Assembly: GCA_016125975.1 (NCBI GenBank)
Contig: JAEFCZ010000070.1
Location: 1-41,363, forward strand
DNA length: 41,363 bases
Direction: 5' to 3'
Origin: Candidatus Nitrosopumilus sp.
GTDB lineage: Archaea > Thermoproteota > Nitrososphaeria > Nitrososphaerales > Nitrosopumilaceae
A program made the translations under genes and the position numbers. Below are positions 6,431 through 10,249 of the stretch, one piece after another. Below the pieces are notes generated by a model. The model was not told where the DNA came from and made no database searches. It saw only the letters and a list, made by a program, of their open reading frames with translations. Each line of letters begins with the position of its first letter. Position 1 is the first letter of the stretch.

Positions 6431-7423
6431 ATGGTAGATGAAATCGATAAGATCATTCTAACAGAGTTAGGAAAGAATGCTAGAAAATCATCTAAAGACA
6501 TTACAAAGATTTTACAAAATATGAATTACCACATAACAGATAGGGGGATAAGACACAGGTTACAAAGATTAGAAAAAAATAACACAGTTGTGGGTTATTC
6601 TGTTACATTAAACCCAGAATTAATTTCAGAAAAAGTCAATCGTACAATAGTTTTGAAATTCAAATTTACTAAAGATACACCAGAATTGATCAATAGACTT
6701 ACAGAATATGTTAATGAATCACATTTTTGTACATATTCCAGCAGACTAAATGGAGATTTTGATTGGGTTTGTCACTTTATTTTTGATTCTATAGAACAGT
6801 TTGATTTAGAGACAAATAATTTTCTAAACAAATTTTCAGAATTGATATCAGACTATAGATCTTATGAATCAAATTTAATCAAAAGTATCCCATATACTAT
6901 TTTTGATCAAGAACACATTAATGAAAAGAAACTTCAAGCTTTGAAGATACTTCAACAAATAAAAAAATACGATACACTAAATGAAAGACTTCAATCAATA
7001 GTAGAAAGTCTTGTAAAATATTTTGATGCAACGTTTGCAAGAGTTTGGTTTGTGGACAAATCTGAGAAATCATTAATTTTACGATTTAGTGCTGGAAAAT
7101 ACAAAAATGTTGAAGGTGAATTTTCCAAAGTTCCAATAAAATCATTAAAGATAGGAGCAATAGTTACTACGAAAAAACCGATTGTTTCTAATGATGTAAT
7201 ACATGATCCACGAATAAAATATCATGATTGGGCAAAAAAAGAGAAACTCAAGTCATTTGCAGGTTACCCTTTGATATACAACAGAAAAGTAGTTGCAGTA
7301 CTTGCTTTGTTTAGCAAAAAACAATTTTCGCCCTCAGATTTTGAGATTTTAGGCATGTTTTCAGACCAAATATCAAAGGAATTAACAGGGTTTTTTGAAA
7401 CAAAAGATTTTCTTTCTGAATGA
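6431..7423 (+). CDS. Lrp/AsnC-type regulator with C-terminal GAF sensor domain
   Basis: Transcription regulator of 330 residues. The N-terminus (1-60) is an Lrp/AsnC helix-turn-helix: VDEIDKIILTELGKNARKSS, then ITKILQ and the recognition part DRGIRHRLQRLEKNNTVVGY. A RAM-like alpha/beta segment follows (about 65-160, NRTIVLKFKFTKDTPELI). The C-terminal half (about 180-325) is a GAF domain: LQSIVESLVKYFDATFARVW, EGEFSKVPI, GAIVTTKKPIVSNDVI and GYPLIYNRKVVAVLALFS. GAF domains bind small molecules or act as redox sensors, so this protein probably links an unknown signal to transcription. It is divergent from the zinc-ribbon/secreted pair, and its promoter carries paired TCCA-N3-TGGA dyads. The ligand cannot be told from the sequence. 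Confidence 0.85.
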   Translation: MVDEIDKIILTELGKNARKSSKDITKILQNMNYHITDRGIRHRLQRLEKNNTVVGYSVTLNPELISEKVNRTIVLKFKFTKDTPELINRLTEYVNESHFCTYSSRLNGDFDWVCHFIFDSIEQFDLETNNFLNKFSELISDYRSYESNLIKSIPYTIFDQEHINEKKLQALKILQQIKKYDTLNERLQSIVESLVKYFDATFARVWFVDKSEKSLILRFSAGKYKNVEGEFSKVPIKSLKIGAIVTTKKPIVSNDVIHDPRIKYHDWAKKEKLKSFAGYPLIYNRKVVAVLALFSKKQFSPSDFEILGMFSDQISKELTGFFETKDFLSE

Positions 7424-7424
7424 T

Positions 7425-8027
7425 TTAGAATTTATCAGTAAAGACAATTTTGTCTAATGGGAGTTGTCCACCACGAGGCATAGCAGGTTTGATTTGTTTT
7501 CCTACTACTAGCATCATAGATATCACATGATCTTCTGGTAAATTGATTAGTTCTGCAACTTTCTCTGGATCAAATCCTATCATTGGATTTGAATCATACC
7601 CCATTGATTTTGCTGCAAGCATTAACGTCTGAGCAGCAATTCCACAAGACCTCATTGCTTCGTCTCTTTGTAATTGATCTTTTCCCTCGTAAAACATTCC
7701 CATTGCAGGTACCAAAAAGTCCTGAGCTTCCTTTGGAGCATCTTTCCAGTATTGTGCAGGATTTTTCTTCCAGGATTTCAAATCAGCACAAAGAACTAAC
7801 AATAATGAAGAATCGGTTACTTGATCCTGATCCCAAGATGCCGCACAAATCTTCTTTCGAATTTCAGGATCTTTTACCAAAACAAATCGCCAATTTTGCA
7901 TGTTAAATGAAGTTGGAGATAAAACTGCCAAAGACATCAATTTCTCAATTTCTTCATCAGAGAGTTTACGATTTGGATCATAGTGCTTTACTGAACGACG
8001 TTCTCTAATTACATCAAAAGTATTCAT
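7425..8027 (-). CDS. Nitroreductase-family FMN oxidoreductase
   Basis: NAD(P)H-dependent flavoprotein of the nitroreductase fold, about 200 aa. Family marks are the N-terminal FDVIRERRSVKHYDP, where RRS contacts FMN phosphate, then LSPTSFNMQNWRFVLVKD and the GYDSNPMIGFDPEKVAELI stretch near the end. The chosen start is ATG 8025-8027 (MNTFDVIRERRSV), which matches the usual N-terminus. The frame is open up to an ATG at 8084, directly preceded by GGGAG, so a GTG or ATG start up to 19 residues upstream is possible. It follows osmC on the same strand within a few bases and is probably co-transcribed from the palindrome-rich promoter, which suggests a role in redox or electrophile stress. The substrate is unknown. 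Confidence 0.88.
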   Translation of the reverse strand: MNTFDVIRERRSVKHYDPNRKLSDEEIEKLMSLAVLSPTSFNMQNWRFVLVKDPEIRKKICAASWDQDQVTDSSLLLVLCADLKSWKKNPAQYWKDAPKEAQDFLVPAMGMFYEGKDQLQRDEAMRSCGIAAQTLMLAAKSMGYDSNPMIGFDPEKVAELINLPEDHVISMMLVVGKQIKPAMPRGGQLPLDKIVFTDKF

Positions 8028-8090
8028 AATTTTGATTGATTCTATGTCGTTATTTTGTTTTTGCAAAGAACTCACCAAAATCATCTCCCT

Positions 8091-8654
8091 CTAGTTATCC
8101 AATTTTACATTAATTGGAGTGGGTCTTGAAACAGTATTTGCTACAGGGGAGGCTTTTTTTGCAAGTTCAATTAATTCTTGCAAAGTTTCTTCTGATGCAT
8201 CAGATTCTATCTTAAAGTCAATATTGATTCCCTGATATCCAGGATTGACATTCTTATCTAATTGGAATAATCCTTGAAGATCAATATCTCCTTCTAGAGT
8301 AGATTCAATTGAATCAATTTTTATTCCTCTTGCAGCTGCATGTGCAACTAAGCTAGTTGTCACACAACCAGCAAGTCCTGCTAATAGATATTCTACAGGA
8401 TTTGCACCATTATCATTTCCTAAGAGAACAGATGGTTCATCTTTTACAAAGACATGAGGATTTTCTCTTGTGTGAGTTTTGCATGCTCCATAAAAATTAC
8501 TTACAGTTGTTTGATTTTTGGTTCCATCAATCCATTTGTTTTTTGCACGAAAATTGAACTTTGCAATTTTCTTGTTTTCTTTGATGCTGTCAATCGTTTC
8601 AAAAAGTTGAGAGACATTTACACCATTTACTATTGTTTGGGTTTGTGTTTTCAT
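8091..8654 (-). CDS. OsmC/Ohr-family peroxiredoxin-like protein with a single family cysteine
   Basis: OsmC-fold protein (187 aa). The central helix NPVEYLLAGLAGCVTTSLVA carries the first conserved cysteine (C97), followed by HAAARGIKIDSIESTLEGDID. Classical OsmC/Ohr enzymes use a second cysteine in a CPV-type motif; here that place reads KKASPVANTVSRP, with Ser169 instead. A further cysteine at 58 (GACKTHTREN) lies in the N-terminal region. The protein therefore belongs to the one-cysteine OsmC subgroup, whose catalysis is less clear. The start ATG lies inside an inverted repeat, with a TATA-like TAATATAA about 27 bases upstream, so the transcript is likely leaderless. It is divergent from the ribbon-helix-helix regulator gene, whose product probably represses it. 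Confidence 0.9.
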   Translation of the reverse strand: MKTQTQTIVNGVNVSQLFETIDSIKENKKIAKFNFRAKNKWIDGTKNQTTVSNFYGACKTHTRENPHVFVKDEPSVLLGNDNGANPVEYLLAGLAGCVTTSLVAHAAARGIKIDSIESTLEGDIDLQGLFQLDKNVNPGYQGINIDFKIESDASEETLQELIELAKKASPVANTVSRPTPINVKLDN

Positions 8655-8748
8655 GATATTGATATCATGATATCATTATATTAAGATTACTTTATTTGAT
8701 ATCATGATATCATAATTTATATAATCATGCGCACAAACGATATCATGA
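8652..8748. promoter_or_regulatory. Cluster of GATATCATGATATC palindromes in the osmC/RHH intergenic region
   Basis: The perfect 16-bp palindrome TGATATCATGATATCA occurs twice, at 8660-8675 and 8697-8712. A third dyad, CATGATAT-TG-ATATCATG at 8652-8669, overlaps the first and covers the osmC start codon. A fourth half-site GATATCATGA at 8739-8748 overlaps a candidate ATG of the regulator. TATA-like boxes lie between them: about 8676-8686 for osmC and 8714-8723 (TTTATATAAT) for the regulator. This layout, with sites over or next to both promoters, is what a repressor controlling itself and osmC would use; ribbon-helix-helix proteins bind such short tandem palindromes. Confidence 0.8.
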
Positions 8749-9407
8749 CAAAAGATGTTCTGGTTCGTGGATTTGATAAATCCACACACTCGAATCTAGG
8801 AAAAAAGGCAGAACAAATGGGGGTTTCAATTAATTCAATTGTAAAAGATGCAGTAGATCAATGGCTTGACAAAAAGACTGATGCACCACATGTTCATGAT
8901 TTGTTAATTTATTCAGATGAAAAATCAATGAATAATTTTCTAAAGTCTTTGGATAGAATGACAAGTGGTACAGAATGGTTCAAGTCATTTGCCGCCCCCC
9001 CAAAGCACCATGCAGAAAAAATTCTATCAAAACTTGATTGGTTCAATGGAACAATAAAACCATACAATCCACATGATAGAACCGATGGTTCAAAATATTG
9101 TGGAAGGGTCATTCAAAATATTGTCAAAGAATCAAAAAAGCAACCACTTTGCTGTGTTGATTTTGTAATTACTGATGTCGCAAACAATTCCTTTACTCAT
9201 GCCATGAAACTAGAGCAAAGTTATGATGATGCACGGCTACCGGGATTGATGTTTTGTCCATACAAAGCAAGTGATCTAATGAATTCAGATATTACAGATA
9301 TGATTGAGTTATTTTTAATGCATGACAGAATTTTTGTTCTAAAAAATGATGATATCTACAAATTGCATTTAACAAAAGAAAGTATTCATAAAATTTTCTT
9401 AAATTAA
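8745..9407 (+). CDS. Ribbon-helix-helix regulator with an unrecognised C-terminal domain
   Basis: The N-terminus is a ribbon-helix-helix (CopG/Arc/MetJ type) DNA-binding domain: strand DVLVRGFDKSTHSNLGKKAE, then GVSINSIVKDAVDQWLDKK. About 170 residues follow that I cannot assign. They contain Cys125, the pair Cys142-Cys143 (PLCCVDF), Cys177 (MFCPYK) and HH at 94-95, candidates for thiol or metal sensing (numbered from the ATG at 8727). Two in-frame ATGs exist, at 8727 and 8745. I prefer 8745 because the TATA-like box 8714-8723 lies about 27 bases before it; the longer form adds six residues. The gene is divergent from osmC across a palindrome cluster and converges on the rhodanese gene with overlapping stops. 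It is likely an autoregulated repressor of the redox genes; its signal is unknown. Confidence 0.8.
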   Translation: MTKDVLVRGFDKSTHSNLGKKAEQMGVSINSIVKDAVDQWLDKKTDAPHVHDLLIYSDEKSMNNFLKSLDRMTSGTEWFKSFAAPPKHHAEKILSKLDWFNGTIKPYNPHDRTDGSKYCGRVIQNIVKESKKQPLCCVDFVITDVANNSFTHAMKLEQSYDDARLPGLMFCPYKASDLMNSDITDMIELFLMHDRIFVLKNDDIYKLHLTKESIHKIFLN

Positions 9408-10180
9408 CTTTCTACAGGTAGTTCCAGGCGATTTCCCCATTCACCCCAAGAACCTAGATAGACTTTGACGTTTGAGAATCCTAGTTTTTTGAGAACCAAA
9501 AATGTATTAGCTGCTCTATATGCTCCTTGACAATAAGTTATAATTTCAGTGCCTTTTGGATAATCATACATTTTTGATAATTCCTCATCACTTTTGAATG
9601 TCCCATCTTCTTTGATGTTCTGATTCCAATCAATATTGACAGCATTTGGAATATGACCAGACTGGGCAGCACGAACTGTACTGCCATCATATTCCCCAGG
9701 TGAGCGGGCATCAAGAATTTTCACATTTTCAAGATTATCCTGAATATATTCAAATCCTGTAATTATGTCAGGATTAGTTTTGCCTGAAAAATCAGATGGT
9801 TTGAATCCATTAGGTTTTGTCTCAAGTGGAAGGTTTTCTTTTTTCCATTTTGTGATTCCACCATCAAGCATCATGGTATTTTCATGAGAAAAATACATCA
9901 ACATCCATACACCTCTAGCTGCAAGCATTCCAGATACTGAATCATAAAAGATGACTTTCTTTTCAGGATAAACACCAAGAAAAGATAGCAATGATTTTGA
10001 TTGGTTATTGAAATTCTCAATTCCTTGTTTTGAAGTATCAATCCAGTGAAATGCAAATAGGTCTAAATGAACTGCTCCTGGAATATGACCTTCAGAATAT
10101 TCTTTGAAAGAACGAGTATCAGCTAGAATCACGTCAGGGTCATTTAGAATTGAATTTAGTTCATTTGTGGAAATTATCAT
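9404..10180 (-). CDS. Thiosulfate/3-mercaptopyruvate sulfurtransferase, two rhodanese domains
   Basis: Moves sulfane sulfur between donors such as thiosulfate or mercaptopyruvate and thiol acceptors. The protein (258 aa from the ATG at 10178-10180) has two rhodanese domains. The first, inactive one has ADTRSFKEYSEGHIPGAVHL and DGGITKWKKENLP and no cysteine in its loop. The second has LDARSPGEYDG, GHIPNAVNIDW and the catalytic loop YCQGAYRAAN, with Cys at about position 217. It ends WGNRLELPVES, close to the usual end of SseA-type enzymes. A TTG five codons upstream could also start it. The stops of this gene and the ribbon-helix-helix gene overlap tail to tail. Proximity to OsmC and nitroreductase suits sulfur or thiol homeostasis. 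Confidence 0.93.
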   Translation of the reverse strand: MIISTNELNSILNDPDVILADTRSFKEYSEGHIPGAVHLDLFAFHWIDTSKQGIENFNNQSKSLLSFLGVYPEKKVIFYDSVSGMLAARGVWMLMYFSHENTMMLDGGITKWKKENLPLETKPNGFKPSDFSGKTNPDIITGFEYIQDNLENVKILDARSPGEYDGSTVRAAQSGHIPNAVNIDWNQNIKEDGTFKSDEELSKMYDYPKGTEIITYCQGAYRAANTFLVLKKLGFSNVKVYLGSWGEWGNRLELPVES

Positions 10181-10249
10181 AAAATGTAATTTCAATAATC
10201 AAATTAATTTCTTTGATTTATGACAGATTTAGGCGTAAAGTTCCCCTAT

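Follow-up and report, generated by a model that had tools for sequence, protein, structure and literature searches.

The window (the whole 41,363-nucleotide stretch of archaeal DNA analysed here) carries an osmC-like gene for stress defence and, divergent from it, the gene of a putative transcription regulator, with short palindromes between the two (Table 1). Close relatives of this locus were found in Nitrosopumilus and other ammonia-oxidising archaea. The osmC product belongs to the OsmC family by its Pfam match (PF02566); it also comes close to the OsmC_like_Se profile, but stays below that profile's cut-off. The nitroreductase-family gene behind osmC is probably the second gene of the controlled operon, and such a gene likewise follows osmC in three further loci (L004, L007, and L009). 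Beside it, at 6431–7423, we noted an unusual-looking regulator that fuses an Lrp/AsnC-like HTH to a GAF domain. At 9404–10195, a two-domain rhodanese gene stands tail to tail with the regulator gene (4 nt overlap) and is its neighbour in L004, too. An RNA element, a tRNA, and a phage origin were considered and set aside: there was no Rfam match, no tRNA was found, and phage records gave no match.

Table 1 Features of the osmC–regulator locus (window coordinates; block and box functions are predicted)
Feature	Position	Strand	Remarks
Nitroreductase-family gene	7425–8084	−	6 nt behind osmC; Pfam Nitroreductase, E 1.4e-37
osmC-like gene	8091–8654	−	187 aa; start 5 nt after distal block; Pfam OsmC PF02566, E 1.5e-23
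Distal operator block, TGATATCA+TGATATCA	8660–8675		Between osmC TATA box and osmC start; same place in 58 of 70 relatives
osmC TATA box, TTAATATAA on − strand	8676–8684	−	Read from sequence; AT-only column run here in relatives
Proximal operator block, TGATATCA+TGATATCA	8697–8712		Just upstream of regulator TATA box, over BRE position
Regulator TATA box, TTTATATAA	8716–8724	+	Read from sequence; conserved AT run, positions 4–11 after proximal block
Single box over regulator start, CGATATCA	8738–8745		41 bp from proximal block start in 15 of 15 osmC-clade members
Regulator gene	8745–9407	+	220 aa; RHH domain (residues 1–45) and putative RecA/KaiC-like C-terminal domain

The regulator most likely starts at the ATG at 8745, since the alignment with homologues begins there and the spacing to the TATA box is suitable; the upstream ATG at 8727 finds no support among homologues. 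Its N-terminus has the anatomy of a ribbon-helix-helix (RHH) protein, with a D4-x-L6-x-R8 strand (D4-V5-L6-V7-R8), two helices (residues 12–25 and 29–43), and a G-x-S motif (G26-V-S28), the strand being unassigned in the single-chain model (AlphaFold2, pLDDT 87). FitA-like, ParG, and RHH_1 profiles match members of the family (best E 3e-4 to 3e-6), the nearest being FitA-like (best E 1.7e-4) and ParG (2.7e-6), with the match of the window's own regulator below Pfam cut-offs. We assign the family to the RHH proteins on these weak matches together with the anatomy. For the C-terminal domain, the Pfam search gave no significant match, and a check by eye found no Walker A motif (GxxxxGK[ST]) in the window's regulator. 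Foldseek matched the modelled domain to CobU, Rho, and KaiC (E 1.8e-5 to 1e-3, TM about 0.4–0.5), modestly suggesting a RecA/KaiC-like fold. The MEDS profile gave no significant match: it reached an E of 0.12 in one of 25 members and did not figure among the 25 families listed for 26 diverse members. Arg8, His51, Tyr56, and Trp99 are invariant in all 70 relatives compared, as are Cys171 and His193 in the 67 relatives in which those positions are present.

The intergenic region holds two perfect copies of TGATATCATGATATCA, 37 bp apart, each made up of two directly abutting 8-bp palindromes. These copies had been reported in the original prediction, as had their placement, and both observations stand: one block fills the osmC TATA-to-start space and the other borders directly on the TATA box of the regulator. 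The half-site that it saw at a start candidate of the regulator proved to be a regular feature of the osmC clade, where its 41 bp spacing is kept throughout (15/15). Its third dyad, over the osmC start, is present (8651–8670, about 18 of 20 positions symmetric by eye); it is not conserved in relatives, and thus is probably a chance occurrence or a local extra.

Pattern searches of the 1.79 Mb genome recovered no exact TGATATCATGATATCA outside this locus, and none for the reversed control. Frequent copies at random places, which would have counted against the original prediction, were therefore not seen, the nearest site (C1:112865, one mismatch) lying within an ORF. The same two results speak against the wide regulon that a genome-wide scan had been expected to reveal, and we dropped it; with no further exact 16-mer in the genome, the regulon looks local, comprising osmC, the regulator itself, and probably the nitroreductase gene behind osmC. 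With up to three mismatches allowed, the window contains five matches against 0.84 expected (no shuffle reached five), and the whole genome 23 against 7 for the reversed control.

Distribution of the regulator and layout of its putative operators

In a phylum sample of 398 genomes, regulator matches were confined to the order of the ammonia-oxidising archaea. A match was present in 24 of 200 genomes of the family and in 78 of 400 of the order (weak partial matches included), and on these counts the regulator is an accessory gene. Sixteen family genomes encode a close OsmC (at least 55% identity), and in 13 of them the regulator lies adjacent; the other three comprise a genome with remnants of both genes, one in which the contig ends, and G071, whose OsmC is 82% identical and has neither regulator nor operator upstream. 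At L013 (G149:C120) osmC is split, and at L021 (G041:C101) osmC and the regulator are both remnants. Judging from the sequences, the osmC–regulator cassette is decaying in some lineages.

The putative sites follow the regulator. Fourteen of the 200 family genomes contain the exact TGATATCATGATATCA 16-mer, which in eleven sits in the promoter of a family regulator; in the remaining three it lies upstream of the regulator's operon (G034), next to osmC where a contig ends (G063), and at an unexplained place (G008). Two variant 16-mers named below for the regulator's residue 6 behaved alike, TGGTACCATGGTACCA occurring in all three H-type genomes and G008 among 200, and AGATATCTAGATATCT in six F-type genomes and G202 among 390, where the exact 16-mer of the AGATATCT type in G202 is unexplained. 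Since these variants were first discovered in those very genomes, the informative part of both searches is their near-absence elsewhere. G008 holds an exact copy each of TGATATCATGATATCA and TGGTACCATGGTACCA (C1:411789, L042, and C1:225619, L165), both single and unpaired, and a regulator of this family was not detected there; the two may be chance occurrences or sites of a distant regulator.

To describe the layout, we used 70 distinct regulators with upstream DNA from ammonia-oxidising archaea and a block pattern in which bases 3 and 6 of each box were left free (maximum score 12). A block scoring 11 or 12 lay upstream in 62 of the 70 relatives, compared with 1.5% of dinucleotide shuffles. 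Two blocks 35–39 bp apart—most often 37—were found in 58, with TATA boxes and starts arranged around them in the same way. At these 58 loci, a TATA-like run on the divergent strand adjoins the distal block, the ATG of the divergent gene follows that block by 5–6 nt in 40, and a second TATA-like run lies 4–11 nt after the proximal block, with the regulator start about 30–34 nt after that block in most. Thus, the distal block fills the divergent TATA-to-start space and the proximal block is placed on that side of the regulator's TATA box where the BRE lies. The layout is constant although the divergent gene changes: OsmC in 23 loci, methyltransferases in 12, small ArsR-like HTH proteins in 11, alkyltransferase-like proteins in seven, alpha/beta hydrolases in five, and single cases of others.

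The extra single box of the osmC clade is exact in nine of its 15 members, has one mismatch in five, and two in one. It overlaps or abuts the regulator start codon at two different reading-frame offsets, and protein coding thus cannot explain its conservation. Directly upstream of the regulators at L020 and L030 we found no blocks; for L020, they lie upstream of its operon instead. At five loci (L007, L009, L017, L027, and L028), a short ORF of 51–63 aa (e.g., MKTQPTLQTKLADWTEAFNS...) comes first behind the operator (divergent start −91) and precedes osmC or a methyltransferase gene; a Pfam search gave no match for it. At L043 (G034, 1123–1516), the regulator is the last gene of an operon with an ArsR-like gene, and the paired blocks upstream of that operon are shared with a divergent gene for a probably secreted protein.

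In AT-rich DNA, palindromes of A and T are no rarity, and the blocks might accordingly be chance or structural palindromes (a cruciform, a terminator, or an RNA element) to which no regulator binds. Against this, the 16-mer is unique in its genome, its geometry is conserved, and Rfam gave no match; the conservation in effect refutes such an origin, whose probability we consider negligible.

Recognition residue 6 and the box variants

Residue 6 is the middle one of the three outward-facing residues of the RHH recognition strand, and the box sequence changes with it. Regulators with Leu at this position mostly have TGATATCA, those with His TGGTACCA, with Ser TGCTAGCA, and with Tyr TGCAAGCA; Phe, together with D4, goes with AGATATCT, and with Val or Ile, together with T4, TGCTAGCA/TGATAGCA is tolerated or preferred. 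Among 212 protein columns, residue 6 best explained the operator base spectrum (adjusted 0.70; next 0.52), and it kept the top rank when the set was thinned to 80, 65, and 55% identity (n = 40, 25, and 19). None of 5000 permutations matched it, in a test that ignores ancestry and was run on a residue singled out beforehand. Position 4 does not stand out once redundancy is removed. For the outer box base alone, residue 6 ranks fourth, making that particular link less certain. A tree-aware covariation test had four independent pairs on well-supported branches, three to four of them concordant and none opposite (p 0.125–0.25); it was underpowered, with too few independent changes, and types H, Y, and S each have a single origin, or nearly so. 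Two genomes carry paralogues with different boxes (G003, L014 and L027; G101, L009 and L028).

Structural precedents agree with this picture. In AmrZ, strand residues i, i+2, and i+4 (Lys18, Val20, and Arg22) contact bases, and a strand valine of FitA touches a thymine methyl group (PMC3325190). The box G is nearly invariant across relatives, as Arg8 is fully invariant, and the chemistry would fit: an aliphatic residue 6 would suit A-T, a His would suit G-C, and Arg8 would suit the box G. Since residue 6 came out best of 212 columns at every redundancy level tried, direct binding of the palindromes by the regulator is strongly supported on comparative grounds, and the joint change of protein and DNA site hints at a readable recognition code.

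The palindromes might instead be bound by a different factor—for example, a general nucleoid or stress regulator—with the RHH gene as a bystander. Nothing speaks for this directly, save perhaps the exact 16-mers that occur once each in G008. In the 200 genomes, however, the sites go with the regulator gene; they stay in position when another partner gene takes over, and their boxes change with strand residue 6. The osmC of G071 has neither regulator nor operator upstream. We therefore regard a different factor as very improbable.

Proposed control of both promoters

We think it highly probable that the divergent regulator uses both 16-bp blocks as its operators and would repress osmC and itself until a signal releases it. 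One RHH dimer would occupy each 8-bp palindrome and insert its antiparallel strand into the major groove, so that a block would accommodate two dimers. Protein on the distal block would cover the osmC TATA-to-start stretch and block RNA polymerase; protein on the proximal block, aided by the single box, would cover the TFB-recognition side of the regulator's own TATA box and its start, so that the regulator limits itself. The signal would be sensed by the RecA/KaiC-like domain, perhaps through Cys171 with His51, Tyr56, Trp99, and His193, whereupon the regulator would leave the DNA and osmC and the nitroreductase gene would be switched on. The original prediction of a repressing RHH protein thus fares well as regards binding, for which the geometry in 58 of 70 relatives, the tracking of sites and regulator, and the covariation with the strand argue strongly; we infer repression itself (rather than activation), along with the dimer stoichiometry, the leaderless starts, and the signal. 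It is the geometry that suggests autoregulation, repression of both promoters, and a leaderless osmC transcript.

In archaea, an operator adjoining the BRE can also have an activating role, which makes positive autoregulation conceivable, and some archaeal activators, such as Ptr2 and members of the Lrp family, bind just upstream of the TATA box, precisely where the proximal block lies. This block could thus activate the regulator's own promoter through recruitment of TBP/TFB, with the distal block repressing osmC. We consider this arrangement unlikely: the third box that members of the osmC clade have at the regulator start fits repression, and the majority of RHH proteins are repressors (PMC3325190).

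The invariant Cys171 of the regulator is a candidate sensor residue. The partner genes (OsmC, nitroreductase, alkyltransferase-like, and hydrolase) suggest reactive or electrophilic small molecules as the signal, and sensing of such compounds by Cys171 is a tentative proposal that we rate as somewhat doubtful. On a wider scale, we may be looking at an RHH-sensor family limited, within the sampled phylum, to the order of the ammonia-oxidising archaea and spread as cassettes with a single target each (regulator, paired operator, and a defence or modification gene that differs between loci). Operator specificity would then depend largely on one strand residue, paralogues within one cell would be orthogonal, and beta-strand DNA readers would follow a natural recognition code; the case for this seems to us evenly balanced.

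To our knowledge, operators are known for few transcription factors of ammonia-oxidising archaea. The operator predicted here is recognisable in dozens of genomes; the promoter layout is fixed, and the proposed single-residue specificity switches are testable. It may help to identify the signal to which these nitrifiers respond with OsmC, nitroreductase, methyltransferase, or alkyltransferase-like proteins, and would supply archaeal genetics with small, orthogonal, predictable repressors.

Comparison with known systems

In the literature accessible to the search, no paper joined OsmC, ribbon-helix-helix proteins, and archaea; one paper with both OsmC and Nitrosopumilus only lists OsmC as a peroxiredoxin. 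The C-terminal domain could be related to MEDS sensors such as DcmR (the non-significant match of one member, E 0.12) and is RecA-like by Foldseek; the described MEDS examples are paired with helix-turn-helix or kinase domains (PMC11507031, PMC11784639), whereas the archaeal regulator carries an RHH domain. FitA/VapB and ParG provide the nearest RHH profiles, but the archaeal regulator has a large C-terminal domain of its own, no toxin partner was seen, and the locus is not a partition system.

With OhrR, the regulator of bacterial OsmC/Ohr genes, the locus shares a dedicated regulator beside an OsmC-family gene and a conserved cysteine. OhrR is a winged-helix MarR protein, however, and its fold and operator are unrelated to those of the archaeal protein.

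MetJ, the methionine repressor of E. coli, is likewise an RHH protein on abutting 8-bp palindromic boxes, an arrangement that the archaeal blocks reproduce as tandem boxes. One MetJ dimer occupies each met box (AGACGTCT), which has the same outer bases as the F-type archaeal box AGATATCT. The box sequences otherwise differ, the two archaeal blocks serve divergent TATA promoters, and where MetJ has a SAM-binding part, the archaeal regulator has its RecA/KaiC-like domain. Searches of Pfam, NCBIfam, and the PDB gave no match to MetJ. By analogy, then, the archaeal regulator works like MetJ on its met boxes, yet is not MetJ by sequence.
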